Source: a virus
Reading direction: 5' to 3' (one strand)
Virus record (IMG/VR): IMGVR_UViG_3300025327_000162
Coordinates: 1-22,423 of that record
Length of the DNA stretch: 22,423 nt
A program made the translations under genes and the position numbers. Numbering within the stretch: the stretch's first letter is position 1; each line of letters opens with the position of its first letter. Below are positions 5,033-22,423 of the stretch, in pieces. The notes under the pieces were generated by a model. That model was not told where the DNA came from. It saw only the letters and a list, made by a program, of their open reading frames with translations, and did no database searches.

Positions 5033-5611
5033 TCAGGAGGCCACGAGGCGGCCTTGCAGGCTCGCTGCGAGGGCGGTGAGCGGGCTATAGACCCGCTGTT
5101 TGAGGCAGATGAGGGCCTCCGCGAGATCCACCAGCAGGGGCACGGTGTCATCGGGAAGTTCAATGGCCACCGTATCGTCGCTGAGATCCGCCGTGAGTTT
5201 GGCGTAGACCAGGGTCACGGTATCGGCCGCCGGCTTCGAGGGCCAGAGCACCAGAAGATCCCGCCCGATCATCGACCAGAGTTCAAACTGGGGCCCGATG
5301 GCCCGACCCCAGGCTCTATCGAAATACCAAAACTCCTTCCACAGCACCTTCTTGAGATCCCGCGCGCCCTCCTGGACCCCGAGCATCCGCAGCGCCGCGG
5401 GGGCCTGAGCAGGATCGGACACCTTGTAGATCTGCTGGTAGGGCACGGTCGGGAAGCTCAGGGTATCGACCACGTACCCATCTCGGGCGTTGACGATTCG
5501 CTGAAGATGCGTCAGCAGGAGCCGGCAGGTGACGCGCGAGGTGCCGAGGGCGTGCGTGTCCCGGACCCGCGCGAGAAGCTGATCCACGAGCTGCCCGGCG
5601 ACGTAGGGCAT
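5033..5611 (-). CDS. Adaptor-like phage protein (second of a tandem set)
   Basis: 192 residues, starting at an ATG reached through TAAGATG from the upstream gene. The middle contains EFWYFDRAWGRAIGPQFELW, then IGRDLLVLWPSKPAADTVTL, then VYAKLTADLSDDTVAIELPD. A helical C-terminus follows (LLVDLAEALICLKQRV). This strand-turn-helix arrangement, with an 'elP' turn before the last helices, is the usual form of phage adaptor proteins placed between portal and tail. The N-terminal 40 residues are helical (LVDQLLARVRDT, LLLTHLQRIVNARDGYV). Function is inferred from pattern and position. Confidence 0.65.
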   Translation of the reverse strand: MPYVAGQLVDQLLARVRDTHALGTSRVTCRLLLTHLQRIVNARDGYVVDTLSFPTVPYQQIYKVSDPAQAPAALRMLGVQEGARDLKKVLWKEFWYFDRAWGRAIGPQFELWSMIGRDLLVLWPSKPAADTVTLVYAKLTADLSDDTVAIELPDDTVPLLVDLAEALICLKQRVYSPLTALAASLQGRLVAS

Positions 5612-5612
5612 C

Positions 5613-6620
5613 TTAGATCGGCCATCTATCTAACACAATGTCCCGCGCCGTGATGGTGTCGCGCCGGGCCCCCAGGCCGAAATTCCTCGGGAGTTGCAGA
5701 ATCATCGTCACATCGTCCACCCCGAGATCCGAGCGGATGGCCTCGATGACTTGGTTCTCCCACGCCGTCGCCTGGCTCCGGTAGGCGTTCATCCAGTAGC
5801 CCGCCAGGTCCGGTTTCCCGGCGCGCACTGCCTGGGCGGCCTCGTACCGCATCGCGTCAATCAGGGCACCCTCGATGATGACGTGCGGGTCGATTTGCGG
5901 AGGCAGGGGGGCATGGAAGGCGAGTTCCGGCGGGGTGGACCAGTAGACGTACCGGATCAATTCGTCCTGGCTCGGATACGGGAAGAACTCCACCCGCTTG
6001 GTGCCATCGGTATCGACAGCCGTTTCCGCCCACGCGCTCGGCCCTCCGCCAGCAGCGGCCGACCGGCGATCCGGGTCTTCATGATCGAGTTCTGCCAGGC
6101 TCACGTTCTCCAATAACTGGCCCCGACGCATATGAACCATGTCGCCTAGCCACCGGACGGTCGGCAGCAAGCGCGTGCGCTGCTCGGCAATCGTGGCCGA
6201 TGCCGTGGCGTTCGTGGTTTCGAGAAAGGGGATGGTGAGCTGGAGCGCCGTGATCGGGCCTGATCCAATGACGGCCGCGATCTCGTACCAGTTCATGGCG
6301 GGCCGGATGAAGCGACCCACGAGAGACAGGCTCGGGTTTGCTGGATCGGTCGAGAAGCCTGTGGGCGTGGCCCAGGCCGCGGCGGCCGTCGCATCCGGCG
6401 TGACCACCACCGACCCCTGGGTGACCGACACCGTGCCAGCGGACATCGTCGCCGGGAGGACGACTTCGCCGACCTTGCGAAGATGACGGAGGCGGCCCCG
6501 GCTGGCGATCCGCTGATACCGGCGGGCGACCCACTGGGCACACAGGAGATGCCCGGCGGAGGTGTCGATGGCGGCCAGCACCTCCCGCGCGCAGGACTCG
6601 ACGGTGAAGGGTGGCGGCAT
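5613..6620 (-). CDS. Head-tail adaptor-like protein
   Basis: 335 residues. It begins with a helical segment (CAREVLAAIDTSAGHLLCAQ, then VARRYQRIASRGRLRHLRK). A beta insertion follows (VVLPATMSAGTVSVTQGSVV and later SLSLVGRFIR). The C-terminal third has the adaptor signature: RVEFFPYPSQDELIRYVYW, STPPELAFHAPLPPQIDPHV, then IIEGALIDAMRYEAAQAV and a closing helix with a Trp. It is the longest of three consecutive proteins with this plan and the one that best matches the family. It probably binds the portal ring and closes the filled head. It ends with TAAGATG into the next gene. Confidence 0.75.
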   Translation of the reverse strand: MPPPFTVESCAREVLAAIDTSAGHLLCAQWVARRYQRIASRGRLRHLRKVGEVVLPATMSAGTVSVTQGSVVVTPDATAAAAWATPTGFSTDPANPSLSLVGRFIRPAMNWYEIAAVIGSGPITALQLTIPFLETTNATASATIAEQRTRLLPTVRWLGDMVHMRRGQLLENVSLAELDHEDPDRRSAAAGGGPSAWAETAVDTDGTKRVEFFPYPSQDELIRYVYWSTPPELAFHAPLPPQIDPHVIIEGALIDAMRYEAAQAVRAGKPDLAGYWMNAYRSQATAWENQVIEAIRSDLGVDDVTMILQLPRNFGLGARRDTITARDIVLDRWPI

Positions 6621-10792: not shown

Positions 10793-11003
10793 ACACACGC
10801 TCCTCTTGCTGGCTCATTGTGACGAATTTGAGCACCGCGTCAAGTGATTTCTTCTGCCCCCGGGCCTCCAAAGTCGCCTCCCAGGTCATCGCCGCATCCT
10901 GGTCCCGCTGACATTGGGCCTTCCGGGCTTCCAGCCACGCGATGAAATCCGCCTCAGCCCCTTCATCCTGCCCCAACCACTCACGCCATCGGCTCCCCGC
11001 CAT
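10752..11003 (-). CDS. Small charged helical protein between portal and scaffold
   Basis: 83 residues. Its ATG at 11003 lies inside the last codons of the portal gene, and its end overlaps the scaffold-like gene, so it is embedded in a run of overlapping genes. Sequence blocks such as WREWLGQDEGAEADFIAWLE and LDAVLKFVTMSQQEERVYAK suggest two helices with many Glu, Gln, Lys and Arg residues. Small proteins of this type are common downstream of phage portal genes, with no known function. A role in head assembly is possible. Confidence 0.6.
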   Translation of the reverse strand: MAGSRWREWLGQDEGAEADFIAWLEARKAQCQRDQDAAMTWEATLEARGQKKSLDAVLKFVTMSQQEERVYAKLRSIQSKRPT

Positions 11004-12843
11004 TGGGCCCTCCTGGAGGTTGATTCTGCCCCATCCCGAGGGCTAACCCGCCGACCATATTGGATAATCCGACGAGGCCGTCTCGGCTCAACCCGTCGAT
11101 GGAATCCAGTTCTTCTTCCACATGAATGATGAACGCCTCGGGATCACGGATCGTGTCGAACGTCCGAATCGTCCGGTCGATGATCTCCCCGGCTGCCGCC
11201 GCCACCTTCCGGGCGACGTCGCGCACCTGCGGCGGTGTCTGAGGGTTGGCGGCGATGGCGACCAACTGGATCGTCTTGTCGTAATACTGCGCCAAGATAT
11301 TGACCAGCATGAGCGCGTTCTGGCGATCCGCGTCCCGGTTGACCGAGGCGCTGCTCGCGGTCATTTCAACCGACACCGCCTCATCGAACTCAGGATCGCG
11401 CAAGAGCGCAATGACGAGCGCCCCATCCTCGGCCCCGATGACGCGCTGAATGTGCTTCTCGACGTCCTTGTCCCCCGCCAAGAGCCGTTCCTGGTAACGG
11501 TAGAGACATTGACGGACCGCTCCGGCTGCTGCGAACCGTACCGAGTCGAAGGCCGGGGTAAACCGGCGATTCACTTGCTGCAACATGCTCAGCGCCGTGA
11601 TCCCCGGCGTCCGCGAGCCGAGCACCGCCGAGGGGCGCGGGGTGGACATATCGTTGATCCCGATGCGCCGTTCCGCGAGCGAAATCGTGATCGCTTCGGC
11701 GGCGGGGGCACTGGGGTAGACGTCTGCCATCTGTTCGGGTTTCAGGTCATCCGGGTCCTGCATGAACTGCACCTTGCCGGGCCAGACCTTCATGGTATCC
11801 GGCACGGACCCCTCACGCGCCTTCCAGAACCGGGCATTCGCCAGGAACATGTTGAGCGTGCGGAAGTTGTGGATGTCGGAGGTTTCTTCCTGATAGGGCC
11901 GGACCATGTCGATGACCCCGATCCCGTAGAAGAGATGGGCGCGGCGCTGATAGTGCATCGCCTCAATCGGGCGAGTATCGTAGCCGTTCCAATCCACGCG
12001 CAAAATCGACTGCGAGGTGCGATCCCACGCCACGACGAGATCCTCGTCAAACCCATCCCCGTCGATGTCGAAGTAGAGGTAGAGTTCAAGGATTTCCGCG
12101 AGTTCCGTGATCTGCTGCGAGGAGGAGGTCCGCCCGAGCTGCTCCCGGCGGGATTTGGTCCATCCGATCGCCCCGACGGGGATGACGCCCGTGATGTCCC
12201 ATTTCTTGGCCTTCGCCTTGTCCCGCAGTTCCGAAAACAGATACCACCAGCGCAACCCGACCCAGCGGGCGACCTGTAAATCATCCGCGGCGCCGCCGGG
12301 GAGAATCAAGTCCTCAATCGGATGGGTGAGAATCCGGGGCGCCCGCGAGGTGATCTTCTTGACCTTGGTTTTCTTCTGATGCTCCACGAACGGGATGTAG
12401 AGAGACCCCGTCCCCAACTGCACGTCGTCAAGGACCGACTGTTCGATCGCTGACCGGAGTGCCCACTCGTTGGCCGCGCCCCAGTTGATGAAGGCTTGGA
12501 GGGCCTTCGCGGCCTGGAGACTCGTCCGGCCATGCACCGCCCGCACGGTGAGTGTTGGCACCACGGTGAAGACGAGATCAATCACCTGGGCATAGATGGC
12601 GTCCGCGGCGATAGCCCCGAGCGTGATCTCCGTGTTCGGCGCGTTTTCCACCGGAATGTTGCGGACAATGTTTTTGGGGATGCCCTCGTAGAGCCGCAGA
12701 TTCTCCCGCCACACGGCTTCCTGCGGGTTCCGAGCGGCTAAGGCCGCCTCGACTTCTTCGAGCAGATAGGCATGAAGTGCCCCCTTCCGCTCTTCCGAGA
12801 TGTCGAGATCGACTTGGCGAGGATGCCGCTCAACGAGGCGCAT
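10981..12843 (-). CDS. Portal protein
   Basis: 620 residues from ATG 12843, ending in TGA. Typical portal regions occur in order: a helical N-terminus (LHAYLLEEVEAALAARNPQE), the wing entry with ITLGAIAADAIYAQVIDLVF, LDDVQLGTGSLYIPFVEHQ, a stretch around HPIEDLILPGGAADDLQVAR, an acidic strand pair YLYFDIDGDGFDEDLVVAWD, and the stem region HLFYGIGVIDMVRPYQEETS with IHNFRTLNMFLANARFW. The C-terminus is helical and ends in a Gly/Pro/Asn tail. Length and layout suit podovirus-type portals, which form the dodecameric ring through which DNA enters and leaves the head. It lies upstream of scaffold and capsid genes as expected. Confidence 0.85.
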   Translation of the reverse strand: MRLVERHPRQVDLDISEERKGALHAYLLEEVEAALAARNPQEAVWRENLRLYEGIPKNIVRNIPVENAPNTEITLGAIAADAIYAQVIDLVFTVVPTLTVRAVHGRTSLQAAKALQAFINWGAANEWALRSAIEQSVLDDVQLGTGSLYIPFVEHQKKTKVKKITSRAPRILTHPIEDLILPGGAADDLQVARWVGLRWWYLFSELRDKAKAKKWDITGVIPVGAIGWTKSRREQLGRTSSSQQITELAEILELYLYFDIDGDGFDEDLVVAWDRTSQSILRVDWNGYDTRPIEAMHYQRRAHLFYGIGVIDMVRPYQEETSDIHNFRTLNMFLANARFWKAREGSVPDTMKVWPGKVQFMQDPDDLKPEQMADVYPSAPAAEAITISLAERRIGINDMSTPRPSAVLGSRTPGITALSMLQQVNRRFTPAFDSVRFAAAGAVRQCLYRYQERLLAGDKDVEKHIQRVIGAEDGALVIALLRDPEFDEAVSVEMTASSASVNRDADRQNALMLVNILAQYYDKTIQLVAIAANPQTPPQVRDVARKVAAAAGEIIDRTIRTFDTIRDPEAFIIHVEEELDSIDGLSRDGLVGLSNMVGGLALGMGQNQPPGGPNGGEPMA

Positions 12844-12849
12844 GGAGCC

Positions 12850-13236
12850 TCATGGCGTCGAGCCGATGGCAAGGCCACGCACGCTGGCGATGACGGAGGC
12901 GGCCTGATTCAGGTTGACGGTCGCGTTGGTGGTGGCGCCCGCGTTGATCGTGCTATCAATGATGAGGAGCAGGCCCCCCGCCTTGAGCAACACCCCGGCA
13001 TCCGTCTGGCCATCCAAGCGGATCGTCACGTCCTGATCGGCCCGGACGAGCAGCCCCTGCATCGTCGTGATCGCGCTCGTCGGCAAGGCTGTGAAGGTGG
13101 TCCCGTTACCATCCCCGACCTTCGTCGTGGGGTTGAAGGCCTGCACTTCATCCGCCACGACGCGGCGCACATAGGGGAAACCCGGCACCGGCTGGCCATC
13201 CACCTCGACGAGCACTGTGACTTTGAGCGCAGGCAT
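12850..13236 (-). CDS. Small beta-rich phage protein upstream of portal
   Basis: 128 residues starting at ATG 13236, which overlaps the preceding stop as TAATG. Upstream codons in this frame are open but belong to a neighbouring gene and lack a better start. Blocks include KVTVLVEVDGQPVPGFPYVR, ITTMQGLLVRADQDVTIRL, LKAGGLLLIIDSTI and ATTNATVNLNQAASVIASV. Alternating strands with Asp/Asn turns suggest a beta sandwich. Similar small proteins appear near the portal in uncultured phages, with no function that I know. A virion component is likely from context. Confidence 0.65.
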   Translation of the reverse strand: MPALKVTVLVEVDGQPVPGFPYVRRVVADEVQAFNPTTKVGDGNGTTFTALPTSAITTMQGLLVRADQDVTIRLDGQTDAGVLLKAGGLLLIIDSTINAGATTNATVNLNQAASVIASVRGLAIGSTP

Positions 13237-13334
13237 TAGCGGGGCCTCGTGGTCGTATTGACGATGTACAAACAGAGCAACGGCACGATGAGCACAACGA
13301 CGCCCAGGAGCACATCCCACACAAAGACGCTCAT
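13236..13334 (-). CDS. Single-span membrane micro-protein (32 residues)
   Basis: The frame starts at ATG 13334, which shares bases with the upstream stop (TGATG), and ends with TAATG into the next gene, so both ends are coupled. The sequence begins MSVFVWDVLLGVVVLIVPLL and continues with CLYIV, an uninterrupted hydrophobic stretch of about 22 residues, then a short polar, basic end (NTTTRPR). This is a typical single transmembrane segment with a positive C-terminal end. A holin-like or other membrane role is possible, but no lysis gene is nearby. The coupling at both ends and the clean hydrophobic pattern are the main support. Confidence 0.6.
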   Translation of the reverse strand: MSVFVWDVLLGVVVLIVPLLCLYIVNTTTRPR

Positions 13335-14674
13335 CACGTCACCTGATAGCCGAGGACGTCGATGTCCAGGGCGTTGGTTGTGAGATTGGTGGTGTTCGTC
13401 CAGAGATAGAACACCTGCTGTCCCACGTTCGGCAGTTGCACCGTGCCCCGGGTCGAGTTCCATTGGGCCGAGGCGGACACCTGGATGCGCGAGGTCATAT
13501 AGTCTTTGGCGGTGATGTACCGGATCTTGGCGATGGTATCCACAGCCCCCCCATTACCCAAGCCCCGGGCCTGCACGTTGAGCAGGATCTGTGTCGCGTT
13601 CGCGGGCACGCTCGCGGAGAGCGCCACGGTCGTTTCCGTGGTCGCCGCCCCCGCAGCCAGGGCCACCACGGCGGTTTCGTACATCGCCCAGTCACCGTAG
13701 AGGCGCGTCGAGACGAGTTGCGAGCTGCCATCGAAGCGCACGGCCCCGGCGTAGGCCCACATCGTGTAGCCCGTGGGCAAGGTCGGCCCCGTGGGCGGGG
13801 CGACGGCGCTGGAGAGTGAGGCCAGGGTCGTGCCGTTCCAGATCCAGTAGAAATGGACGAACGTGGAGACCGTGAAGGCGGCGGCTTGATCCCGGCCGTT
13901 GATGATGGGGCCAGCCGTCGTCACGGTGTTCGTGAGACTGCCGGGATTATGCTGCACGGATTGGGTATTCGTACTCGACCGGAGGACCACGGCATCCGCG
14001 GCGAGATGGAACGTGGCGACGGTCGCCACGAAGGAGCGGTTGCCCCGCACGGCCCAGGTATTCGTCCCGGCACCACCGGAGACAATGATCTGAAAGAAAT
14101 TGGGCTCCCAGGCGACCGTGACGCCACCGGCCCCGACCACGGTTGCGGGGACCATGCCGGTGCCGTCGGAGGCCATGATCGTGCCTGCGGGTAAACCGAC
14201 AAGCGTTTGCGCCATCCCGCCCTGGGCTAAACTCAACGCAAAGCGCACCCGCGTGTCGGTGGAACTGGTGACGTTGCCCCCAGAAGTCACAACCGTGGCG
14301 ATCCGAATGGCCCCGGCTGGCAAGGCCGGCGCGGAGCCCCCGGTGCCGACGAGATAGTGCGTGCCCGCGACGCGGGTGTAGCCGGTGAGATTCCCGGTCG
14401 TCTCGGCATTGGCGATGACGTAGTTGTTCTGGCCATTCGCAAAAGTGACCGACCCGCTCTCAGTGAGATAGAACCCGTTGGCGTAAGCGGTCAAGGCCGT
14501 GGGCGTGTGCGTGAGTCCAGAAGCGACGGGAAAGACGCCGCCGCTCACCACGAAATCGGTGAACATGTCCCGATACCGCTCGGCGTCCTCCTCCGCGAGG
14601 AAGGTTTGCAGATCCGTCAGGAACGCGGCGGATGCCGAAGGGATCGTACTGTGCGTCTGGGTGGTGACGGGCAT
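13334..14674 (-). CDS. Fibre-like virion protein
   Basis: 446 residues. The ATG at 14674 directly follows the TAA of the preceding small gene. The N-terminus (LTDLQTFLAEEDAERYRDMF) is helical. Residues about 40-150 form a beta region with YANGFYLTESGSVTFANGQN and GNLTGYTRVAGTHYLVGTGG, then RIATVVTSGGNVTSSTDTRV. This resembles a domain common in phage fibres, where units of a value, unit and stranded repeat occur. Residues about 340-446 read like another beta sandwich (AATTETTVALSASVPANATQ, LLNVQARGLGNGG). Ser, Thr and Gly are abundant and Cys is absent. A surface fibre or receptor-binding role is inferred. It lies unusually between terminase and portal. Confidence 0.7.
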   Translation of the reverse strand: MPVTTQTHSTIPSASAAFLTDLQTFLAEEDAERYRDMFTDFVVSGGVFPVASGLTHTPTALTAYANGFYLTESGSVTFANGQNNYVIANAETTGNLTGYTRVAGTHYLVGTGGSAPALPAGAIRIATVVTSGGNVTSSTDTRVRFALSLAQGGMAQTLVGLPAGTIMASDGTGMVPATVVGAGGVTVAWEPNFFQIIVSGGAGTNTWAVRGNRSFVATVATFHLAADAVVLRSSTNTQSVQHNPGSLTNTVTTAGPIINGRDQAAAFTVSTFVHFYWIWNGTTLASLSSAVAPPTGPTLPTGYTMWAYAGAVRFDGSSQLVSTRLYGDWAMYETAVVALAAGAATTETTVALSASVPANATQILLNVQARGLGNGGAVDTIAKIRYITAKDYMTSRIQVSASAQWNSTRGTVQLPNVGQQVFYLWTNTTNLTTNALDIDVLGYQVT

Positions 14675-14839
14675 TTAGCCGAACGCGCCCTTGTTCCCAG
14701 CACCCCGGCGATTCTGGCCTGGAATATCCCGCGGCTTCCGCACGGACGCGATCATTCCGGCCCGGGCAGAGGTGGCGAACGTGACGCCGGCCTTGAGATG
14801 CCCAGTACCGGCTTTGGCGTTGTCCTTGATTGCGGCCAT
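14675..14839 (-). CDS. Small basic protein (54 residues)
   Basis: The ATG at 14839 is preceded by AGGAGA at a good distance, and the TAA abuts the next gene's ATG. The protein starts MAAIKDNAKAGTGHLKAGVT and ends GQNRRGAGNKGAFG. It is rich in Gly, Ala, Lys and Arg, with few acidic residues. No family was recognised. Its tight fit between two genes and good ribosome site support a real gene. Confidence 0.6.
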   Translation of the reverse strand: MAAIKDNAKAGTGHLKAGVTFATSARAGMIASVRKPRDIPGQNRRGAGNKGAFG

Positions 14840-14849
14840 GGGGTCTCTC

Positions 14850-15137
14850 CTATTGAAATTCGATGTAGAGCTTTCCGCTGGCCAGGGTCGGCACGACTAA
14901 CCCAATCCAGGGTCCCGGCCCAGAGCGCGAGAGCAGGTTGTCCGATTCGACATAGTTCGCGCCAGAGGCGACGGAGGCCCACTTCACCTTCCCTGCGGCA
15001 TCCGTGACCACGGCCGTGTGGCCCGCCGTCGTCGCCCCGACCCAGCGGATGCCCTTGACCGAGACGGGATCTGTCGTCAGCACCGTGGAGGCGGCGGTGT
15101 CCACGATCCATTCCGTCGATTGATAGGCGTTGGCCAT
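14850..15137 (-). CDS. Small beta-rich structural protein
   Basis: 95 residues; the ATG at 15137 shares its A with the TGA of the upstream coiled-coil gene. Blocks are TEWIVDTAASTVLTTDPVSV, KGIRWVGATTAGHTAVVTDA, AGKVKWASVASGANYVES and GLVVPTLASGKLYIEF. This order (W-x-v-D, then v-k-x-I-x-W, then v-x-D-x-x-G) recurs in small phage proteins that I know from uncultured phage genomes, with no assigned function. The fold is probably a small all-beta domain. A virion component is likely from its location. Confidence 0.65.
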   Translation of the reverse strand: MANAYQSTEWIVDTAASTVLTTDPVSVKGIRWVGATTAGHTAVVTDAAGKVKWASVASGANYVESDNLLSRSGPGPWIGLVVPTLASGKLYIEFQ

Positions 15138-15649
15138 CAGCCCCTCCCCACCATCTCGCGGAACACGCCGAGCTGGTTTTCCGCGGCCGCGATCTGTCCA
15201 GCGAGCGCCTCCAACCGCCCACGCTGGGTCCGCTCCTCCGCCTCCATGTCGGCCACCCGTGCCGCGTGGGCCGTTTGCGTCGCCGCCAGCATCTCGGCCA
15301 TCTCCTGCTCGTGGATGGCGAAGGCTTCCCGGGCTTTTCGGCTGGCCGCCGACACCTTCGCCGCCTCGTCCGTAGCGCGCTGCGTCAAGGTCGCCACGGT
15401 GTGCGCGTAGGTGGCCTGCGCGGTGTCGATCTTCCCGTTGACGGTATCCAGTTCCGCTTGCGCGAGGTCGATGGTCGCCGCGATGCGGTCCAGGGTGGCC
15501 TTGGCTGAGGGGATAGCCGACTCGATGGTGGCCACCCGCTCCAGGATCGGCTTGATCTTCGTGAACACTTCGAACGAGGCCGAGAGGTTCGTGAGATCCC
15601 GCAGGGCGTCGCTGTACGGCGTGAGGCTCTCCAGGTCGTCGTCAGGCAT
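15137..15649 (-). CDS. Coiled-coil protein
   Basis: 170 residues with GGAGGAG before ATG 15649. From about residue 25 to the end it is nearly all helix-forming, with heptad-like spacing: IKPILERVATIESAIPSAKA, DLAQAELDTVNGKIDTAQA, LTQRATDEAAKVSAASRKAR, HEQEMAEMLAATQTAHAARV and LEALAGQIAAAENQLGVF. No enzymatic motif is visible. It is the first gene after the only long intergenic region, so it may begin a transcription unit. It could be a virion, scaffolding or fibre-associated coiled coil. Length alone rules out a tape-measure role. Confidence 0.7.
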   Translation of the reverse strand: MPDDDLESLTPYSDALRDLTNLSASFEVFTKIKPILERVATIESAIPSAKATLDRIAATIDLAQAELDTVNGKIDTAQATYAHTVATLTQRATDEAAKVSAASRKAREAFAIHEQEMAEMLAATQTAHAARVADMEAEERTQRGRLEALAGQIAAAENQLGVFREMVGRG

Positions 15650-15666
15650 GGGTGGTCTCCTCCCCG

Positions 15667-15698
15667 TGACAATGCGCTACATCGACGCAGGCTGTCAA
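15667..15698 (-). promoter_or_regulatory. Promoter-like site with an inverted repeat
   Basis: On the minus strand a perfect -35 hexamer TTGACA (15698-15693) is followed 18 bases later by a weak -10 candidate CATTGT (15674-15669). The site is also a dyad: TGACA pairs with TGTCA, and inside it TGCG pairs with CGCA around a 9-base centre. It lies just upstream of the coiled-coil gene's ribosome site. The overlap of promoter and dyad suggests an operator, but the regulator is unknown. The -10 match is poor. Confidence 0.4.
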
Positions 15699-15970
15699 GA
15701 ACTGCTCCGATGCCATCCCCCGAGCGACCGCCGCCACAGGCGCTGTTCAGTCGGAACTGCTCCACCCCCACTCTGCCGCGTCCGGTCCCACACGAACAAC
15801 TGCCCATGGACCCCCCCGAAACGTCCATAGAGGAGCCACGGATGACGGGGCAAGGATTGGGACGGCGCGGTTGCCCCTTTACCACGCGAGGACCAGAGCC
15901 GCGCTGGCTGGATGTAGTAAAGCGGATGGATATGCCCAGCCCCGCCCCGCTGCGAAAGAATGCCGCTCAT
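15695..15970 (-). CDS. Doubtful 91-residue reading frame in the intergenic region
   Basis: An ATG at 15970 follows AGGTGA by 6 bases, just after the stop of the preceding gene, and the frame ends inside the promoter-like site. The translation is rich in Gly, Arg, Ser and Trp (for example GGVHGQLFVWDRTRQSGGG) and lacks the Ala/Val/Thr pattern of its neighbours. No family was recognised. If it is not a gene, 15650-15980 is a 331-base leader region holding a promoter-like dyad and a 10-base direct repeat. Confidence 0.25.
   Translation of the reverse strand: MSGILSQRGGAGHIHPLYYIQPARLWSSRGKGATAPSQSLPRHPWLLYGRFGGVHGQLFVWDRTRQSGGGAVPTEQRLWRRSLGGWHRSSS
15699..15763 (-). repeat. Direct repeat GGAGCAGTTC, two copies
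   Basis: GGAGCAGTTC occurs on the minus strand at 15708-15699 and 15763-15754, 55 bases apart, in the intergenic region directly upstream of the TTGACA site. Spacing is about five helical turns, so both copies face the same side of the DNA, as expected for binding sites. Two copies only; chance cannot be excluded. Confidence 0.4.
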
Positions 15971-15980
15971 GCGCGGTCAC

Positions 15981-16973
15981 CTACGGGTCCGGCACAATCG
16001 TCACGAAGAGATCGTCACAGCCCGCCGCCGTGGCCCGGAGCGTAATGACCCGCCCATTGAGATCCCCCGCGCCGAAGTCCACGGCGTAGATGCCAAAGGC
16101 AATCTCCGTCACCGCCGAGAGCGTCCCTGCCGCGAAGGCCCCATCATCAATTGATCGCGTCACGGTCACTGTCTTACCAGTCACCGGATTGTGATTGGTC
16201 GAATCCGTCATCAGGAATTCAAAACCGATGAGCGTCGCATTCTTCTTGATGCCGGAGCTAATGGACACCGCCGCCGTCACGCTCCCCACGCTGCCGGAGA
16301 GGTTGCCGGTGATATTGCCGACAATATCCATCGTCTGGTTCGGTAGATTGATGGCCGTGAGCCCAGCCCCCGCCACGCCGATTTCGGCGGTGTCGGTCTC
16401 GATGTCTGCTTCCTTGTCCCGGATAGCTTCCAGTGAATCCGTCGTCTGATCGTAGGTGAACGACCCAGCGGTCTTACTCAACATCTCATGAACCACGCTG
16501 CCCACCGTGGGCGGGGCAGCGCCGTCAATGTCCGAATCTGCCGCGAGGATCTCATCGAGGCGGGCATCCGCTATGGCCGTGTCCACTTCCGCATTCACAT
16601 CAAGCTTGGCCTGGGCACTAAGTCCCGCACGCTCGATGGAGAAGGACGCCAGCACCGCATTGACGGTTTTGGTGTCCACCACGGCACCGACGATGGCCAC
16701 TTGGTACTCATTGCCGGCGGCGTAGAAGCCCGCATCCGTGTTGTCGGAGAGGTCGATGTAGACGGAGTGCATCCCGGTGGCGTCGAAGTCTTCGAGTTGG
16801 GTCACGCCAGCGAGCGAACTGCGTTCCGTGGCCCAGGTCGCGGCGGTGGCGTGCGCCTTGAAAATCTTGAGCGTGCCGTCCGTCGAGCGCGTGATGCTGG
16901 CCCCGGTCTGGTCGTTCGTATTCCAAAGGAGCGCCACCTTGCCGTTGACTGGGAAATCGCCGAGATGCTTCAT
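15981..16973 (-). CDS. Virion protein with two related beta-sandwich domains
   Basis: 330 residues; its ATG overlaps the end of the LamG gene. Residues 1-115 and 245-330 look like two versions of the same domain: VALLWNTNDQTGASIT... with GMHSVYIDLSDNTDAGF, and LIGFEFLMTDSTNHNPVTGK with AFGIYAVDFGAGDLNG. Between them lies a helical, Asp-rich linker (LDVNAEVDTAIADARLDEIL, DSLEAIRDKEADIETDTAEI) and a short repeat-like piece (IVGNITGNLSGSVGSVTAAV). The linker type and the end domain are familiar from tail-associated proteins of uncultured phages. A fibre or surface role is inferred. It ends at 15981, before the long intergenic region. Confidence 0.7.
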   Translation of the reverse strand: MKHLGDFPVNGKVALLWNTNDQTGASITRSTDGTLKIFKAHATAATWATERSSLAGVTQLEDFDATGMHSVYIDLSDNTDAGFYAAGNEYQVAIVGAVVDTKTVNAVLASFSIERAGLSAQAKLDVNAEVDTAIADARLDEILAADSDIDGAAPPTVGSVVHEMLSKTAGSFTYDQTTDSLEAIRDKEADIETDTAEIGVAGAGLTAINLPNQTMDIVGNITGNLSGSVGSVTAAVSISSGIKKNATLIGFEFLMTDSTNHNPVTGKTVTVTRSIDDGAFAAGTLSAVTEIAFGIYAVDFGAGDLNGRVITLRATAAGCDDLFVTIVPDP

Positions 16974-17791
16974 GCGGAGACCAGCTTTCCACCTACGAGA
17001 GATTTATTTAGAATGTTGTAGCCGACGAGTGGTCCGGCGGTGTTCGCCCCCGCCGGCACGAAGTACCGCCGCCGGAGGATGGGGCGGAGGAAGGCGTAGG
17101 GTTCTTGTGACGTCCAATACATCTGTTCGTCGGACAAGGCATGGTCATATAGGAAGACGTGATAAATGTCTCCGTCAAAATAGAATCCGGCGCTACCATA
17201 CCGGCCGATGTCAAATGTGTTCGTATTCACGAGCGACTGCGTGCCTGTGTAGGCGAATGAGGCATCAAATGTGCCATCTACATAGTACCGAAGCGTGAGC
17301 CCGTTATAACTACCGGCGATCGTATGTACCAATCCATCGCCCGTGACATCGGTCACGAATCCAGAGTTGTGCCACGCCCCATCATAAAATGCGTACCCAT
17401 TGGATGAGGCACCGATCAGACTCAATCGCCACGGGACGTTTGATCCATTGAAATTCACCGAGGCGATCGTCTGATTACTAGCCCCGCGGTTGCATATGCG
17501 ACTCACGACGGACGTGGTCGCCTGCTGCAAATACGCGGGCTTGGGCGCGGCAAAGTATTTCCCGCCCGTCGTCGAAAACGTCGCGGTCATCCCGCCGGGT
17601 CCAGGCGTCCACGCAATCCCCCCGACCGGCGCAGCGGCCAATCCACGAGTCACGTCGATCGTTGGGCCTCCGCCTTCATTCAAGAGCCACGCCGCGAGGA
17701 GACCCTGCGCAAGGCGATGCCCCCAGTCGATCTCCGCCGCGCCGAACGGCGGCTTGACGCGGGGGTCGGGCCAGAGGAGCGAGCGCGGCAT
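16970..17791 (-). CDS. LamG/concanavalin A-like domain protein
   Basis: 273 residues. N-terminal IDWGHRLAQGLLAAWLLNEG followed by GGPTIDVT is the usual opening of phage proteins with a LamG fold. Residues about 90-240 hold the LamG domain: TIAGSYNGLTLRYYVDGTFD, TNTFDIGRYGSAGFYFDGDI, and the closing YHVFLYDHALSDEQMYWTSQ followed by EPYAFLRP. This fold binds sugars or proteins, so a receptor-binding or surface-decorating role is likely. GGAGAA lies 8 bases before ATG 17791, and the ATG overlaps a TAA (TAATG) although no gene now ends there. GC is lower than in neighbours: 17161-17220 has 28 of 60 G+C. Confidence 0.85.
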   Translation of the reverse strand: MPRSLLWPDPRVKPPFGAAEIDWGHRLAQGLLAAWLLNEGGGPTIDVTRGLAAAPVGGIAWTPGPGGMTATFSTTGGKYFAAPKPAYLQQATTSVVSRICNRGASNQTIASVNFNGSNVPWRLSLIGASSNGYAFYDGAWHNSGFVTDVTGDGLVHTIAGSYNGLTLRYYVDGTFDASFAYTGTQSLVNTNTFDIGRYGSAGFYFDGDIYHVFLYDHALSDEQMYWTSQEPYAFLRPILRRRYFVPAGANTAGPLVGYNILNKSLVGGKLVSA

Positions 17792-17802
17792 TACTGGAGT
17801 TC
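17791..17802 (-). other. Relic gene end (E-L-Q-stop) in front of the LamG gene
   Basis: Minus-strand GAACTCCAGTAA would encode E-L-Q-stop and overlaps the LamG start as TAATG. The real upstream gene ends with GAGCTTCAGTGA, also E-L-Q-stop, at 18367-18356, on the other side of the HNH gene. Nine of 12 bases agree and the three differences are synonymous transitions. Confidence 0.5.
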
Positions 17803-17823
17803 TCCGGTATGGTATAGTAGGGC

Positions 17824-18261
17824 ATGAAAACGAAACCGGTCAGTGGGTTCCCGGGCTACTGGATTACGGATACCGGCCGAGTCCTGAGCGGCATGGAACA
17901 ACGAAGTCCTGGTGGGCATGCGAACGGATTTCGAACAATAATCCACCGAAATCCTATTCGAGAACTCAAGCAAACGCTGACGAATCGGTACTTCGTCGTC
18001 GGCCTTCATCGAGAAAACACAGTCGTCTTGCGGCGGACACACCATCTTGTCCTTGAGACTTTCGTTGGGCCGCGCCCGAAGAATTATCTTGGGCGGCATC
18101 TCGACGGTAACACCGCCAACAATACGCTCGCAAACCTTGCGTGGTCCACCCATAGTGAGAACGCATTGGACCGTCGGCGACACGGCACTTGGACGAAGAC
18201 ACGCACCGATATGCGGAAGTTGACGGATCGGCAGTTCGTAGCCATTAGAAACTCGGCCTGA
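17824..18261 (+). CDS. HNH homing endonuclease with NUMOD4-like N-terminus, C-terminus cut by TGA
   Basis: 145 residues on the strand opposite to the late genes. Residues 8-22 (GFPGYWITDTGRVLS) fit NUMOD4. The HNH core spans about 73-110: RTHHLVLETFVGPRPKN, then RHLDGNTANNTLANLAWST, with His 73/74, His 92 and Asn 99/100 as likely metal and catalytic residues. After LTDRQFVAIRNSA the frame stops at TGA 18259-18261, but it continues in frame with a helix-turn-helix-like tail. Such genes spread by cutting DNA without the insert. GC is low (29 of 60 at 17941-18000). It lies between a structural gene and the LamG gene. The HNH core is intact, so nicking may survive. Confidence 0.85.
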   Translation: MKTKPVSGFPGYWITDTGRVLSGMEQRSPGGHANGFRTIIHRNPIRELKQTLTNRYFVVGLHRENTVVLRRTHHLVLETFVGPRPKNYLGRHLDGNTANNTLANLAWSTHSENALDRRRHGTWTKTRTDMRKLTDRQFVAIRNSA

Positions 18262-18381
18262 GGAGTCGGAACCGCAGAACTCATCGCGAAACACTATGGA
18301 ATCTCCACTTCGCATGTCTATGCGATCCGTAATGGCAGTAGACTGCGGCACGAGATCACTGAAGCTCATCTGCCTGGCTGA
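18259..18381 (+). pseudogene. Lost C-terminal DNA-binding tail of the HNH gene, beyond an in-frame TGA
   Basis: Reading on through TGA gives GVGTAELIAKHYGISTSHVY then AIRNGSRLR, up to TGA 18379. This aligns with the end of the other HNH protein (GVWPQRLIAREFLIDPSHVS, then KIHSGDRR), including the spacing after the L-t/s-D-x-x-x-x-x-I-R start. The tail is a helix-turn-helix-like segment usual in HNH homing enzymes. It is therefore a former coding part cut off by one stop codon. Confidence 0.65.
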
Positions 18382-18802
18382 ACAGCGTCACGGTCGAGCC
18401 CGTCGCCGGGAACGCCTGCCCAGAGGAATTTTTCAAGATGAACTTGACCTTGCACCCCGGGAGGGTGAAGATGTTGGAGGAACGGATCTGCGCCGCCGTG
18501 GTGTCGATCAGGCTGATGACGGCCACGAGCTTGTCCGCGCGGGCGTCGTTGTCCGAGTCAAGCGTGTCGTAGTTCGTCCCGTCCACGGCCCTGATCGCAT
18601 ACAAGGACACGAAGCCGGTGGCCGTTGGCGCAGACACGAAGTCCACCGCCACCACCGCCTGGAAGAACTGCCGGAGATCGGTTGAATTGTCGTACTCGGT
18701 GCCCGCCACCGACCACGCGCCATCCGCAAGGGCGTTCAGTTCCGTGGTCAGGACGGTGCCTTCGCTGGTCGGGGCGGCATCCCAGAGGACAATGTTAGCG
18801 AT
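18356..18802 (-). CDS. Conserved phage structural protein, probable ATC start
   Basis: The sequence IANIVLWDAAPTSEGTVLTT, then ELNALADGAWSVAGTEYDN, then FFQAVVAVDFVSAPTATGFV, follows a known pattern of phage virion proteins that normally start M-A-N and continue with 't-x-x-G-s-v-L-T-T-E-L-N-a-L'. The frame is open only from a TAG at 18817-18815. Between that stop and the conserved part there is no ATG, GTG or TTG. AGGAGG at 18816-18811 stands 8 bases before ATC 18802-18800, where ATG would be expected. A start at GTG 18715 or ATG further in would delete the conserved N-terminus. 148 residues. It ends in E-L-Q-TGA next to the HNH gene. Confidence 0.7.
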   Translation of the reverse strand: MANIVLWDAAPTSEGTVLTTELNALADGAWSVAGTEYDNSTDLRQFFQAVVAVDFVSAPTATGFVSLYAIRAVDGTNYDTLDSDNDARADKLVAVISLIDTTAAQIRSSNIFTLPGCKVKFILKNSSGQAFPATGSTVTLFSQADELQ

Positions 18803-18810
18803 GGCTATCT

Positions 18811-18816
18811 CCTCCT
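18811..18816 (-). promoter_or_regulatory. Shine-Dalgarno that points to an ATC start
   Basis: AGGAGG on the minus strand, 8 bases before ATC 18802. It is the only strong ribosome site near this gene and fixes the start within a few bases. An in-frame TAG overlaps it, so translation cannot begin further upstream. Confidence 0.6.
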
Positions 18817-18836
18817 ATGGGGTGTAGAATCTGACC

Positions 18837-19358
18837 ATGATCGAAACGTGGCACGAGATTCCACTGCCAGGCTACGACCACCTCTATGAGGCCAGCGACT
18901 GCGGCAGAGTCCGTAGCCGAGACCGTATAGACCGCTTCATGCGTCTCCATAGGGGCGTTGTGTTTACTCCGTTCCGTAGCCCAACCGGCTATCTCCAAGT
19001 GACCTTGAGCAACAACGGTCGGCAGTGGACATTCACCATTCACGATTTGATTGCACGTACATGGTTGGGAGAACGACCCAAGGGTTACGAGGTGAACCAC
19101 CTGAATGGTGACAAGGTGGACAACCGAGCGGAGAACCTCGAATATGTCAGCCGCAGCGCGAATCAGCATCATCGCTACCACGTCCTTGGAAAGCGCGCGC
19201 CACATGGAGAAGCCCATTACGCTGCACGACTATCTGATGCTGACGTGACCGAGATTCGAAGACTGCGCGGCGTATGGCCACAGAGATTGATAGCCAGAGA
19301 GTTCCTGATTGACCCGTCCCATGTCAGCAAGATCCACTCCGGCGACCGTCGCATTTAG
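18837..19358 (+). CDS. HNH homing endonuclease (NUMOD4 plus HNH)
   Basis: 173 residues, antisense to the late genes. NUMOD4: TWHEIPLPGYDHLYEASDCG followed by RVRSRDR at residues 4-30. HNH core: FTIHDLIARTWLGERPKGYE then VNHLNGDKVDNRAENLEYVS, with His 69, His 88 and Asn 97/100 as likely active-site residues. After GEAHYAARLSDADVTEIRRL a complete helix-turn-helix-like tail follows (LIAREFLIDPSHVSKIHSG). It is intact and related in plan to the HNH gene at 17824. GC is low (30 of 60 at 19021-19080). Its TAG overlaps the TAA of the minus-strand gene that ends at 19355. It would act by nicking or cutting related phage DNA so that the gene is copied. Confidence 0.9.
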   Translation: MIETWHEIPLPGYDHLYEASDCGRVRSRDRIDRFMRLHRGVVFTPFRSPTGYLQVTLSNNGRQWTFTIHDLIARTWLGERPKGYEVNHLNGDKVDNRAENLEYVSRSANQHHRYHVLGKRAPHGEAHYAARLSDADVTEIRRLRGVWPQRLIAREFLIDPSHVSKIHSGDRRI

Positions 19359-19840
19359 GCGCCCGGGATCAGGACGAAGGCGGCGCTCACGTCCACGCTC
19401 TCGATGGCCCCTTCGAAGGTCAGCGTGAAGGTGCCAGTGCCATCAAGGGCGAACAGGCGCTCCGCACGTGTCATCTTCCGCTTCGCGGCGGCTGCGAGCG
19501 CCGCGCGCATCGAGGTGCCAGTGCCTCCGCTGAAAATGTCGCTGAACCCATTTCGGATGTTGGCTAACGAGGGATTGACCGGCCCGATCATGAACATCAT
19601 GCGGAAGGCGTCACGCTCCCCCTGGCTCCGGGCAATGAATGTCGTCCAGTTCATCACCGCGAGGGCGTCATTGAGCGAGAACGACGTGCGCCAGCAGTCG
19701 GCCAGCGTCGGATCGGGCGCGTTGTAATAGTTTCGCACCGCCACGTTGTCATTGGCCGCGCCAAGATAGAACTCGGCCAATTCGGGATGGGTTTGTATAT
19801 CTGTCGCCAGGGTCACGATCTGCGCTGGTGTCAGGGCCAC
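19355..19840 (-). CDS. Conserved phage protein, function unknown
   Basis: 161 residues from GTG 19840, with AGGAGG 6 bases upstream. Sequence blocks RNYYNAPDPTLADCWRTSFS, then LNDALAVMNWTTFIARSQGE, then SLANIRNGFSDIFSGGTGTS and AAKRKMTRAERLFALDGTG, then TLTFEGAIESVDVSAAFVLI follow a pattern common in tailed phages: 'Y-N-a', 'i-f-S-G', 'a-x-R-x-a-t-r-a-E-r-l-f-a' and 'f-E-G'. I know no proven role; its usual place in phage late modules suggests a virion or assembly protein. The HNH gene at 18837 sits directly after it on the other strand. Confidence 0.75.
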   Translation of the reverse strand: MALTPAQIVTLATDIQTHPELAEFYLGAANDNVAVRNYYNAPDPTLADCWRTSFSLNDALAVMNWTTFIARSQGERDAFRMMFMIGPVNPSLANIRNGFSDIFSGGTGTSMRAALAAAAKRKMTRAERLFALDGTGTFTLTFEGAIESVDVSAAFVLIPGA

Positions 19841-19864
19841 AGCACGCCTCCTTCCATGGGTTGT

Positions 19865-19987
19865 CTACATGGATCGCACGGCGCGGACCGCGAAGGCCCG
19901 CCCAGACTGGCTTTTCTTGCGACCCTTGGGAGCCGGTTTGGGCCTGCCCTCGCCCATCATGGGCATCATGGGCATGGCCTGCGGCAT
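19865..19987 (-). CDS. Tiny Met-rich basic protein (40 residues)
   Basis: ATG 19987 to TAG 19867-19865. It begins MPQAMPMMPMMGEGRPKPAP, then a Lys/Arg-rich part (KGRKKSQSGRAFAVRAVRS). The repeated P-M-M motif and strong basic tail resemble tiny peptides of phage late regions. The ribosome site is weak. The frame is open further to 20143, but that part overlaps the next gene in another frame and looks like its shadow. Confidence 0.45.
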   Translation of the reverse strand: MPQAMPMMPMMGEGRPKPAPKGRKKSQSGRAFAVRAVRSM

Positions 19988-20009
19988 CCGGCCAGGGTGA
20001 CGCGGGCCC

Positions 20010-20183
20010 TTACTTGCCCCGCGTGGCACGGTTGATGCCTCCGCCCATCGTCGGGTTCCCCTTCGCGCTCTTGACGGGCCCGCTCCGCATCGGGGTGCCG
20101 CTGCCAGAGCGTCCCTGCTGGTAGCTGTTCCGCTCCTTCGCACTCACCCGCGCCAGCCCTGCCAGATCCAGTTTCGAGGCCAT
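20010..20183 (-). CDS. Small basic protein (57 residues)
   Basis: AAGGAG precedes ATG 20183. The protein begins MASKLDLAGLARVSAKERNS and ends PTMGGGINRATRGK. It is rich in Gly, Ser, Arg and Lys, with almost no large hydrophobic residues after position 10, so it is probably disordered. No family was recognised. The ribosome site and location between terminase and structural genes support a real gene. Confidence 0.6.
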   Translation of the reverse strand: MASKLDLAGLARVSAKERNSYQQGRSGSGTPMRSGPVKSAKGNPTMGGGINRATRGK

Positions 20184-20252
20184 GTCGGTGTCTCCTTGTG
20201 GTGAAAGGGCCCAGTTATCCGTCGCTGCGCGTCATCGTGACACCCTGCGTCG

Positions 20253-20269
20253 TCCAGGTCAAGCCTGGA
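20253..20269 (-). other. Short hairpin after the terminase gene
   Basis: TCCAGG (20269-20264) pairs with CCTGGA (20258-20253) around the loop CTTGA. It lies 8 bases after the terminase stop in a 93-base gap. There is no U tract, so it is not a clear intrinsic terminator; it may stabilise the mRNA end. Confidence 0.35.
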
Positions 20270-20276
20270 ATGTGGG

Positions 20277-20900
20277 TTAGGCGACCTGGCCCCGGGCGAC
20301 CCGCTCGATATAGTCGGCCGGCGCCCCGGTTTCCCGGAGATAGGCGAGGCGTCTTTCCAGCTCCCCATCCTGTTGCCGGCGGATCTGGACCGCCGGGAGG
20401 AGCTTGACCGCAGAGGCCAAGGCATCCACTAGGTCGACGGTCGGTGCCATCGGGAAGTTGACCAGTTCCGACCGGAGTTCGAGGTGTTGGGGCTGAAGGA
20501 ACAGCCGCCCGTTCCCGATCACAGGCTGGAGCACCGTGCGGATGCGCCAGGTCTTCTCCACGTTGGTCGGCTGGCGGACTTCCAGGATCGGCACCCGGCG
20601 CTCCCGGAACTTGGCTTCCCGCCCCACCATGTCGCCGTAGAGGGATTGCATGGCGTTGGACTCGATGCCGAAGGTCCGGGGGTGGAAGGTGTCGTTGACC
20701 TCGAACAGCTTAGCCGTCAACTGATCGGTCGAGCAGCGGGCGGCCCAGGCGAAGAGGACGAACACGCGGCCCCACGTGTCCTGCGCAACCACCACGATCG
20801 CGCTCCGGGCCCGGACGCGCTTCAGGGCGAGGCGCTTCCCAGCGGCGGGATCGCAGAACGCCACCCGGTAGGAGAGATCCCCCAAAGGCAGACGGGTCAT
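20277..20900 (-). CDS. terL: Large terminase, nuclease part
   Basis: 207 residues. The RNase H-like nuclease of phage terminases is recognisable: YRVAFCDPAAGK (Asp 17) as first acidic strand, TFGIESNAMQ (Glu 80) as second, and VDLVDALASAV (Asp 156, Asp 159) as the last. These residues hold the metal ions that cut concatemeric DNA. The C-terminus is helical and basic (VQIRRQQDGELERRLAYLRE). Its ATG at 20900 is the codon right after the TGA of the ATPase frame and is in the same frame. No good ribosome site precedes it, so it depends on restart or readthrough. Missing N-terminal ATPase is supplied by the neighbour. Confidence 0.85.
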   Translation of the reverse strand: MTRLPLGDLSYRVAFCDPAAGKRLALKRVRARSAIVVVAQDTWGRVFVLFAWAARCSTDQLTAKLFEVNDTFHPRTFGIESNAMQSLYGDMVGREAKFRERRVPILEVRQPTNVEKTWRIRTVLQPVIGNGRLFLQPQHLELRSELVNFPMAPTVDLVDALASAVKLLPAVQIRRQQDGELERRLAYLRETGAPADYIERVARGQVA

Positions 20901-22052
20901 TCAGATCGCCCGCAACCGGAAGCCCTGTCCGGGCTGATAGAGACTCTGCCACGAGTCGCGGGTCAAGACCGTCCCCACGGGCAGATCGGGTCGCGACGCT
21001 GGGGTATTGACCCGCTCGCCGATGGCCACGTCGCGCTCGTCCTCGGTGAACTGGATCATGTTGCCCACGATCGAGAACTCGCGAACCATCTCCATGTCGA
21101 AGTCCGTCAAGGCGGGATCGGAGCCGGAATTCATATAGAGCAACGAGAAGAGCACGCCGAACTCCCGTTGGAGCTGCGCGATCTTGTCGAGCGTAAAGGC
21201 CTCCGGCCAGATCGGGTCCCCGTCCTCGACGACGGCTTTCACGAGCCATTCCACGGTGGGATCGTTCTGCTGGATGTATTGGTAGAGATCCGCCACCCCC
21301 CACCGCGTGCCGATCAGGAACTCCAAACTCGACGGCTTGTTGATGAGCGCTCGGGAGGCGATATGCCAGTCGATGGCCTGCTGCATGACGAGGGGCGAAT
21401 TGGCAGCGTCCAGCGTCACCAGGTCGTCCTTGATGAGGACCGAAGGGTGCGCGCCGGTCACGGCGGCCCCCACGCCCATCGCGCGAATCGAGGGATCTGA
21501 CCATTCCTGGTTCCGGGGCACGATCATCTCGCGTTCGTTCCATTTCTTCGACTGCTTCCGGGGATTGTCCCAGACGCGATGGGGCCAGAGGGCGCGCAGC
21601 ACCTCGTTCGTCTCGAAGGCGGATTCCACAACGCGCAGCGCGTCCGTCATGCGGGCTTCGGTTTCCCCGGTCATGATGATCCGCTGATCGGCGCCATCCT
21701 CGCCGGGAAAGTAGATATTCGCCTCTTTCGGCTGGATGAGAATGTGAATCGGGAGGCCGTGGGATACGATCGTCGTTTTGGCGTGCTCCCGCGGCAGCAG
21801 AATCGCCTTCCGCATCGGGGGCACGCGCTGGAGGAACTGGCAGACCGGGAGATGGAGGGATTCCGTAAGGAACGTCTTGCCGAGGACGCCTTTGTTGAAG
21901 GCGTAAAGCGAGCCTTCCATCTTCCGGCGCTGGGTGGCGATCCAGGCCCCTTCGGCACTGGCGGCACCCGCTTGGCGCGCCTGCCCGGTTTTCCGGTCGA
22001 GCAGGATTTCCGCTTTGGCCTTCCGGGCACGCGCGGCCTGCTCGGCGTTCAC
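20901..22052 (-). CDS. terL: Large terminase, ATPase part
   Basis: 383 residues from GTG 22052. Walker A variant ILLPREHAKTTIV (about residues 84-96), Walker B VLIKDDLV (205-212, acidic Asp 209/210), and coupling-motif-like FLIGTRWGVADLY follow in order, as in the ATPase that drives DNA into the head. The N-terminus has QFLQRVPPMRKAI before Walker A. The frame ends with TGA 20903-20901 after GQGFRLRAI, in the linker where the nuclease normally follows. Overlap of GTG with the TGA of the upstream gene (GTGA) suggests coupling. Usual whole terminases have about 500-600 residues; the two parts add up to 590. Confidence 0.85.
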   Translation of the reverse strand: MNAEQAARARKAKAEILLDRKTGQARQAGAASAEGAWIATQRRKMEGSLYAFNKGVLGKTFLTESLHLPVCQFLQRVPPMRKAILLPREHAKTTIVSHGLPIHILIQPKEANIYFPGEDGADQRIIMTGETEARMTDALRVVESAFETNEVLRALWPHRVWDNPRKQSKKWNEREMIVPRNQEWSDPSIRAMGVGAAVTGAHPSVLIKDDLVTLDAANSPLVMQQAIDWHIASRALINKPSSLEFLIGTRWGVADLYQYIQQNDPTVEWLVKAVVEDGDPIWPEAFTLDKIAQLQREFGVLFSLLYMNSGSDPALTDFDMEMVREFSIVGNMIQFTEDERDVAIGERVNTPASRPDLPVGTVLTRDSWQSLYQPGQGFRLRAI

Positions 22053-22423
22053 GGCGGTGTCGAGATCCAGGTGCCCGCCGGCCAGAACGTCCCGGGAAAG
22101 GCGGTCAGGATCGTGCCGAGGACGATCTTGGCGTGGCCCAAGGTATAGGCGAAATCCACCCGGTACACTCCCCCACCGGCCAGGACCTTGGCCCCCACGT
22201 CGTTTTCATCAAATCCCCGCACATCGACCATGGTGCCCGGGATGAAAAGACGGAGCCCGACGCCGGACCCCACGCTACTGGACGACAGGACCAGATCATA
22301 CGGCGGCCCACCAGGGAGTGGCACGGGCACAGGTCCGGGCGGGGGCGCGGGTGCCGGCGGGGGCGCGGGAGGCGCCACAGGCGCACCAGGCCCGCCCCAT
22401 CCGCCAAAGGGGTTGACAGGATA
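22049..22423 (-). CDS. Pro-rich protein with C-terminal beta domain (5' end outside window)
   Basis: The frame is open to the right edge, giving 124 residues. The visible start is YPVNPFGGWGGPGAPVAPPA followed by a Pro/Ala stretch. From about residue 42 comes a compact domain with LVLSSSSVGSGVGLRLFIPG, then VDVRGFDENDVGAKVLAGGG and VYRVDFAYTLGHAKIV. No family was recognised. A GTG at 22378 could be an internal start, but the reading frame upstream also looks coding. It lies just before the terminase, where small terminase subunits usually are. It lacks the helical, basic look of that subunit, so its role is open. Confidence 0.65.
   Translation of the reverse strand, partial: YPVNPFGGWGGPGAPVAPPAPPPAPAPPPGPVPVPLPGGPPYDLVLSSSSVGSGVGLRLFIPGTMVDVRGFDENDVGAKVLAGGGVYRVDFAYTLGHAKIVLGTILTAFPGTFWPAGTWISTPP

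Follow-up and report, generated by a model that had tools for sequence, protein, structure and literature searches.

A probable displaced gene end beside a free-standing HNH endonuclease gene in a phage

Introduction

The closest precedent for the locus described here comes from fungal mitochondria, where mORFs are known from atp6, atp9, cox2 and nad3 of Glomus and from atp6 of Allomyces macrogynus (PMC3630166). In both fungi the endonuclease gene has on one side an inserted C-terminus, fused to the body of the host gene, and on the other the displaced native C-terminus (PMC3630166). For Glomus atp6 the native C-terminus matches close relatives at 91.2%, and the two copies match each other at 63.5%, with the protein remaining largely the same (PMC3630166).

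In phages, the mob genes of T4 (PMC2988022) and the HNH genes of Skunavirus (PMC12724721) encode NUMOD4/HNH_3 enzymes outside introns and lie between conserved phage genes; they occur in some relatives and are missing from others (PMC2988022, PMC12724721). We found no report of a displaced host-gene end at the insertion site of the T4 mob or Skunavirus HNH genes. HEG islands, in which a phage gene has endonuclease genes on both sides, have also been described (PMC10448857).

Here we analysed a stretch of 22,423 bases (the window) from one IMG/VR virus record. It holds an endonuclease gene, HNH1, that shares with the T4 and Skunavirus genes the domains, the intron-free setting and the patchy occurrence between conserved genes. 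Like in the mORFs, HNH1 is flanked by two host-gene ends, of which 12–14 bases are certain, and the stranded native end is the better match to close relatives. The enzyme family and the logic, the latter from fungal organelles, are thus already known, and what appears to be new is the displaced gene end in a phage, for which our limited literature search returned no other case.

Results

Gene map of the locus

The structural genes of the region are encoded on the minus strand; HNH1 and a second endonuclease gene, HNH2, are on the plus strand and flank a 148-codon gene on either end (Table 1). A 100% identical contig, IMGVR_UViG_3300025325_000134, spans at least bases 10973–22423 of the window, so that the features described do not depend on one assembly, although this contig and the window could share a source. 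The arrangement recurs in the 100% identical contig L003.

Table 1. Features of the locus, in window coordinates
Feature	Position	Strand	Remarks
148-codon phage gene, probably virion-associated, first codon ATC	18356..18802	-	90% identity to L004-L006, 67% to L009
Left copy (functional) of gene end, GAG CTT CAG TGA	18356..18367	-	8/12 to nearest HNH-free relatives
Right copy (displaced native end), GAA CTC CAG TAA	17791..17802	-	11/12 to L004-L006 gene end
Candidate longer remnant of native end	17792..17817	-	Shuffle p = 0.004; final 12-14 bases certain
HNH1, NUMOD4 + HNH_3 endonuclease gene, 145 aa, free-standing	17824..18261	+	Antisense to structural genes
In-frame TGA, then same-frame helix-turn-helix tail of HNH1 family	18259..18382	+	HTH_23 and HTH_Tnp_4, weak matches
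Laminin_G_3 (LamG) gene	16970..17791	-	In relatives directly 3' of 148-codon gene
HNH2, second NUMOD4 + HNH_3 gene, 5' junction of 148-codon gene	18837..19358	+	
161-codon gene, upstream of 148-codon gene	19355..19840	-	

The product of the 148-codon gene had no match in Pfam or PHROG. AlphaFold2, run on eight family members, gave a model (pLDDT 77) with an all-beta sandwich fold. Among viral proteins it matched uncharacterised phage proteins best, and tail-fibre and C1q-like folds less well. Its position next to LamG and further virion genes makes 'structural' a reasonable guess for this gene. No DNA similarity to the region was detected in 50,697 phage records, a tblastn search with the 148-codon protein against phages gave no match, and two scans of genome contigs yielded zero relatives. 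The relatives used below were found by searches with the flanking proteins.

The large terminase gene of the window is broken by an in-frame TGA with an ATG right after it (20900–20903, minus strand), and each of the two halves matches phrog_38; the break may be a natural split or a nonsense mutation. This TGA and a further one in HNH1 (see below) raised the question of an alternative code with TGA as a sense codon, which we rejected because many genes here stop at TGA, several of them at tight gene junctions.

The end of the 148-codon gene is present twice

A first-pass annotation of the sequence had described E-L-Q-stop ends on either side of HNH1, and they are present exactly as described. 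The left copy closes the 148-codon gene, and the right copy, read on the same strand, shares bases with the ATG of LamG (17791–17789) as TAATG; the HNH1 gene separates the two. GA-CT-CAGT is common to both copies in register. Direct reading also bears out that the three differences between them are transitions, each of which is synonymous or exchanges one stop codon for another.

Judged from the window alone, this likeness is not compelling. The copies agree at 9/12 bases, a level of similarity to the left copy that is reached by ten of the 44,824 12-mers on both strands of the window, and alignment of the two flanks against each other gave p = 0.36 in a shuffling test (local alignment). With such numbers the likeness might be due to chance, with the right E-L-Q-stop string being a mere leader of LamG. 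The HNH-free relatives already refute this reading, which we regard as very improbable: they carry GAACTCCAATAATG at exactly this junction, and the window matches their gene end GAACTCCAATAA at 11/12 bases or better at one lone site, the right copy. Because the relatives' end finds the right copy alone at this level, the doubled end goes beyond chance.

The stranded right copy is closer to the gene end of the nearest relatives than the attached left copy (11/12 versus 8/12). Shuffled alignment of the right flank with an HNH-free relative gave p = 0.004, with CTATAC-CATA-CCGGA-GAACTCCAGTA aligned to CTGTACTCGCAGGCGGATGAACTCCAATA. The old end may therefore be preserved in the right flank over up to 26 bases with small deletions, the last 12–14 bases being certain.

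HNH-free relatives preserve the junction without the endonuclease gene

In three HNH-free contigs (L004, L005 and L006), the homologue of the 148-codon gene (90% protein identity) joins LamG directly via GAACTCCAATAATG, and the junction reads ...GCG GAT GAA CTC CAA TAATGCCGCGCTCG. That the 148-codon gene would run straight into LamG in relatives without the HNH gene had been predicted from the window, and the predicted sequence agrees with the one seen in all three contigs at 13/14 bases, the lone mismatch being synonymous. BLASTN of the window against L004 returned two pieces, one for each side of HNH1, which overlap at the gene end (L004 3950–3956).

A family profile of the 148-codon gene identified 58 loci, of which 54 were informative after setting aside the window's twin (L051), the locus of the more distant relative L008 (L074) and two loci cut by contig ends; some of the loci are near-duplicates, and the 54 do not equal independent lineages. 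The next gene starts between −37 and +13 bases from the stop codon in 47 of them and is at most 5 bases away in five more, giving 52/54; L086 and L097 are ambiguous. Among all family loci, only the window with its twin and L008 have an endonuclease gene at this junction. HNH1 is thus polymorphic for presence and absence at a conserved gene junction. By this gene order, the tight junction between the 148-codon gene and its neighbour is the ancestral state, and HNH1 was gained in the lineage of the window. Clean loss through short direct repeats is possible, and HNH1 could in principle be the ancestral state, lost from the relatives by recombination between such repeats. This is already unlikely by parsimony, since the genes adjoin in 52 loci of the family, outgroup L009 among them, which would call for many losses instead of one gain, and we assign it hardly any weight.

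The relatives' junction, together with the 11/12 versus 8/12 matches, identifies the right copy as the displaced native end and HNH1 as a derived insertion. We consider it highly probable that HNH1 lies in the last codons of the 148-codon gene and that the insertion site, the ancestral junction and the native copy are assigned correctly. Site and junction are those proposed in the first-pass annotation.

An E-(L/I)-Q ending is also found in the distant family members L057, L059, L072 and L097. Loss of this ending would probably be costly to the phage, and its recurrence would account for the need of the invaded gene to retain these residues.

HNH1: a free-standing and probably decaying homing endonuclease gene

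HNH1 combines an HNH nuclease domain (HNH_3, 42.3 bits, cut-off 24.8) with a homing-type DNA-binding module (NUMOD4, 23.7 bits, cut-off 23.4), as expected for a free-standing homing endonuclease gene. Introns are frequent homes of HNH genes, and a gene residing in a group I intron or an intein could be misread as free-standing. There were zero Rfam matches at E values up to 1 across 17600–19600, so that a group I intron around HNH1 was rejected for want of intron RNA structure, and HNH1 is antisense to the 148-codon frame, which is unbroken up to a stop of its own and has a conserved end. HNH1 thus sits in no intron or intein, and a misreading of this kind is extremely unlikely.

The nearest relatives of HNH1 are 34–53% identical and located elsewhere, and no donor with HNH1 plus its flanks was found. 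Two related phages (L015 and L016, from G007 and G008) have two and four HNH_3 genes at other places; such genes abound in this group.

The relatives of HNH1 finish in a helix-turn-helix tail with closing residues such as GRTWAHIP. The equivalent point in HNH1 coincides with the stop of the 148-codon gene, which places the 3′ edge of the insert there. In HNH1 itself, a TGA breaks the frame at codon 146, directly ahead of the helix-turn-helix tail; past the TGA the frame is still recognisable and continues into the antisense of the 148-codon gene. This TGA, which had gone unmentioned in the first-pass annotation, removes the DNA-binding tail, and for this reason HNH1 is probably truncated and decaying. 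An intact frame including the C-terminal DNA-binding part is seen for HNH2 and not for HNH1. Truncated copies are common among the HNH genes of Skunavirus (56/268) (PMC12724721).

A second endonuclease family occupies the same junction in L008

In L008, a LAGLIDADG-like gene (5150–6031, minus strand; PF14528 with 21.7 bits, slightly below the cut-off of 22.5) lies antisense at the very junction that holds HNH1 in the window. Its end overlaps the upstream gene by 20 bases, which resembles the old frame of HNH1. A doubled end at this gene was not significant (p = 0.67 and 0.23). Two enzyme families, oriented alike, are therefore present at this one gene ending, and the ending of the 148-codon gene may be a recurrent landing site.

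The 10-mer GTATGGTATA is present at 17807–17816 of the window and at 5977–5986 of L008, 14–15 bases from the ATG of LamG. It adjoins the starts of two unrelated endonuclease genes and is absent elsewhere in the stretches searched; a shared promoter, a remnant or a coincidence are candidate explanations.

HNH2 at the 5′ junction

HNH2 scores 44.1 bits for HNH_3 and 37 bits for NUMOD4, and its frame is intact. It lies between the 148-codon and the 161-codon gene, and its TAG shares bases with the upstream gene's TAA. HNH2 is absent from L004–L006, where these genes are 3 bases apart; the junction in L004 reads TAACCAATG. No doubled gene end was detected at HNH2 (p = 0.73 and 0.84 in shuffled alignments), nor did any of eight loci of HNH relatives have this signature.

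ATC is the first codon of the 148-codon gene (18797–18820, minus strand); it stands behind GGAGGAG, eight bases past a GGAGG motif. There is no ATG, GTG or TTG in a comparable place near this start, and the aligned relatives start with ATG. The change from ATG to ATC is located at the HNH2 insertion.

With HNH1 and HNH2 around the 148-codon gene, the arrangement recalls the HEG islands, which exceed 10 kb and are of high identity; in the window a single gene is bracketed (PMC10448857).

Discussion

Our data are best explained by a model in which HNH1, a homing endonuclease gene of the free-standing type, inserted itself in antisense into the last codons of the 148-codon gene. The insertion left two ends, one fused to the gene body, preserving the ...DELQ terminus of the protein, and the native one stranded against the LamG start. 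The attached end may have arrived with the element, or may have been rebuilt during repair from a divergent HNH-bearing template, and its respelling may have helped it to escape recutting.

When polarised by the relatives (L004), all three differences fall on the left, attached copy, which agrees with delivery of the end by the element or with its copying from a template that bore HNH. Element-supplied protective recoding is no more than plausible. Divergence is marginally higher in the last nine codons (7/9) than elsewhere in the gene (62/140), with p = 0.05, or p = 0.03 by permutation; at p = 0.03–0.05 only, we do not claim a terminal spike of recoding. The first-pass annotation had proposed HNH entry at the gene's end, with the old end left by LamG and a recoded, no longer cuttable one supplied by the endonuclease gene. 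Its first two parts are borne out by the relatives, and the third is weak at these p values (about 0.03–0.05). The best DNA match to the attached end is the distant member L072 (11/12), the residues are those of the window lineage itself, and 12 bases are too short to name a donor.

A rival explanation concerns only the origin of the new end. At the entry of HNH1, a staggered break of at least 12 bases could have been filled in, giving a target-site duplication of which the attached copy then drifted synonymously. The in-register GA-CT-CAGT of both copies and the synonymous nature of every difference in the left copy agree with this, and in a gene with 46% of its codons different from L004, changes in three of four codons are nothing exceptional. 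A duplicated target with later synonymous drift accounts for the data almost as well as an element-supplied end. However, the changes are 3/3 on the constrained coding copy and 0 on the unconstrained one, which should drift at least equally fast (the sign test gives only 1/8), and staggers of 12 bases or more are not known for HNH homing enzymes. We give target-site duplication an appreciable probability, though below even, and the same holds for its corollary that the stranded copy stayed unchanged by chance.

In T4, the cut sites of free-standing endonucleases usually lie at a distance of hundreds of bases or more from the place of insertion (PMC2988022), so that the gene end need not be the site cut by HNH1. 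Phage HNH elements might carry a respelled host-gene ending at the 3′ edge of the unit, on the other strand, which would permit harmless and uncut entry into coding ends. We put this forward tentatively and think it rather unlikely, as we do the analogy that follows from it, in which such elements would be the phage counterpart of the C-terminus-swapping mORFs of fungi. The duplicated ends of mORFs measure about 50 to 280 bases, against 12–14 certain bases in the window, and trees place the inserted end of mORFs in another lineage, whereas no donor can be named here (PMC3630166). The cited case of Glomus atp6 concerns a LAGLIDADG enzyme in a fungal mitochondrion (PMC3630166), and ours an antisense HNH gene in a phage.

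An open question is how homing endonuclease genes can move into a new place for the first time and leave the host gene alive. This site keeps a before-and-after record at the level of single bases, in which HNH-free sister phages stand beside the native and the new end of the window. It represents a phage gene end that was replaced and displaced, in parallel to what is known from fungal mitochondria, and it offers short DNA substrates of defined sequence for a direct test of protective respelling.
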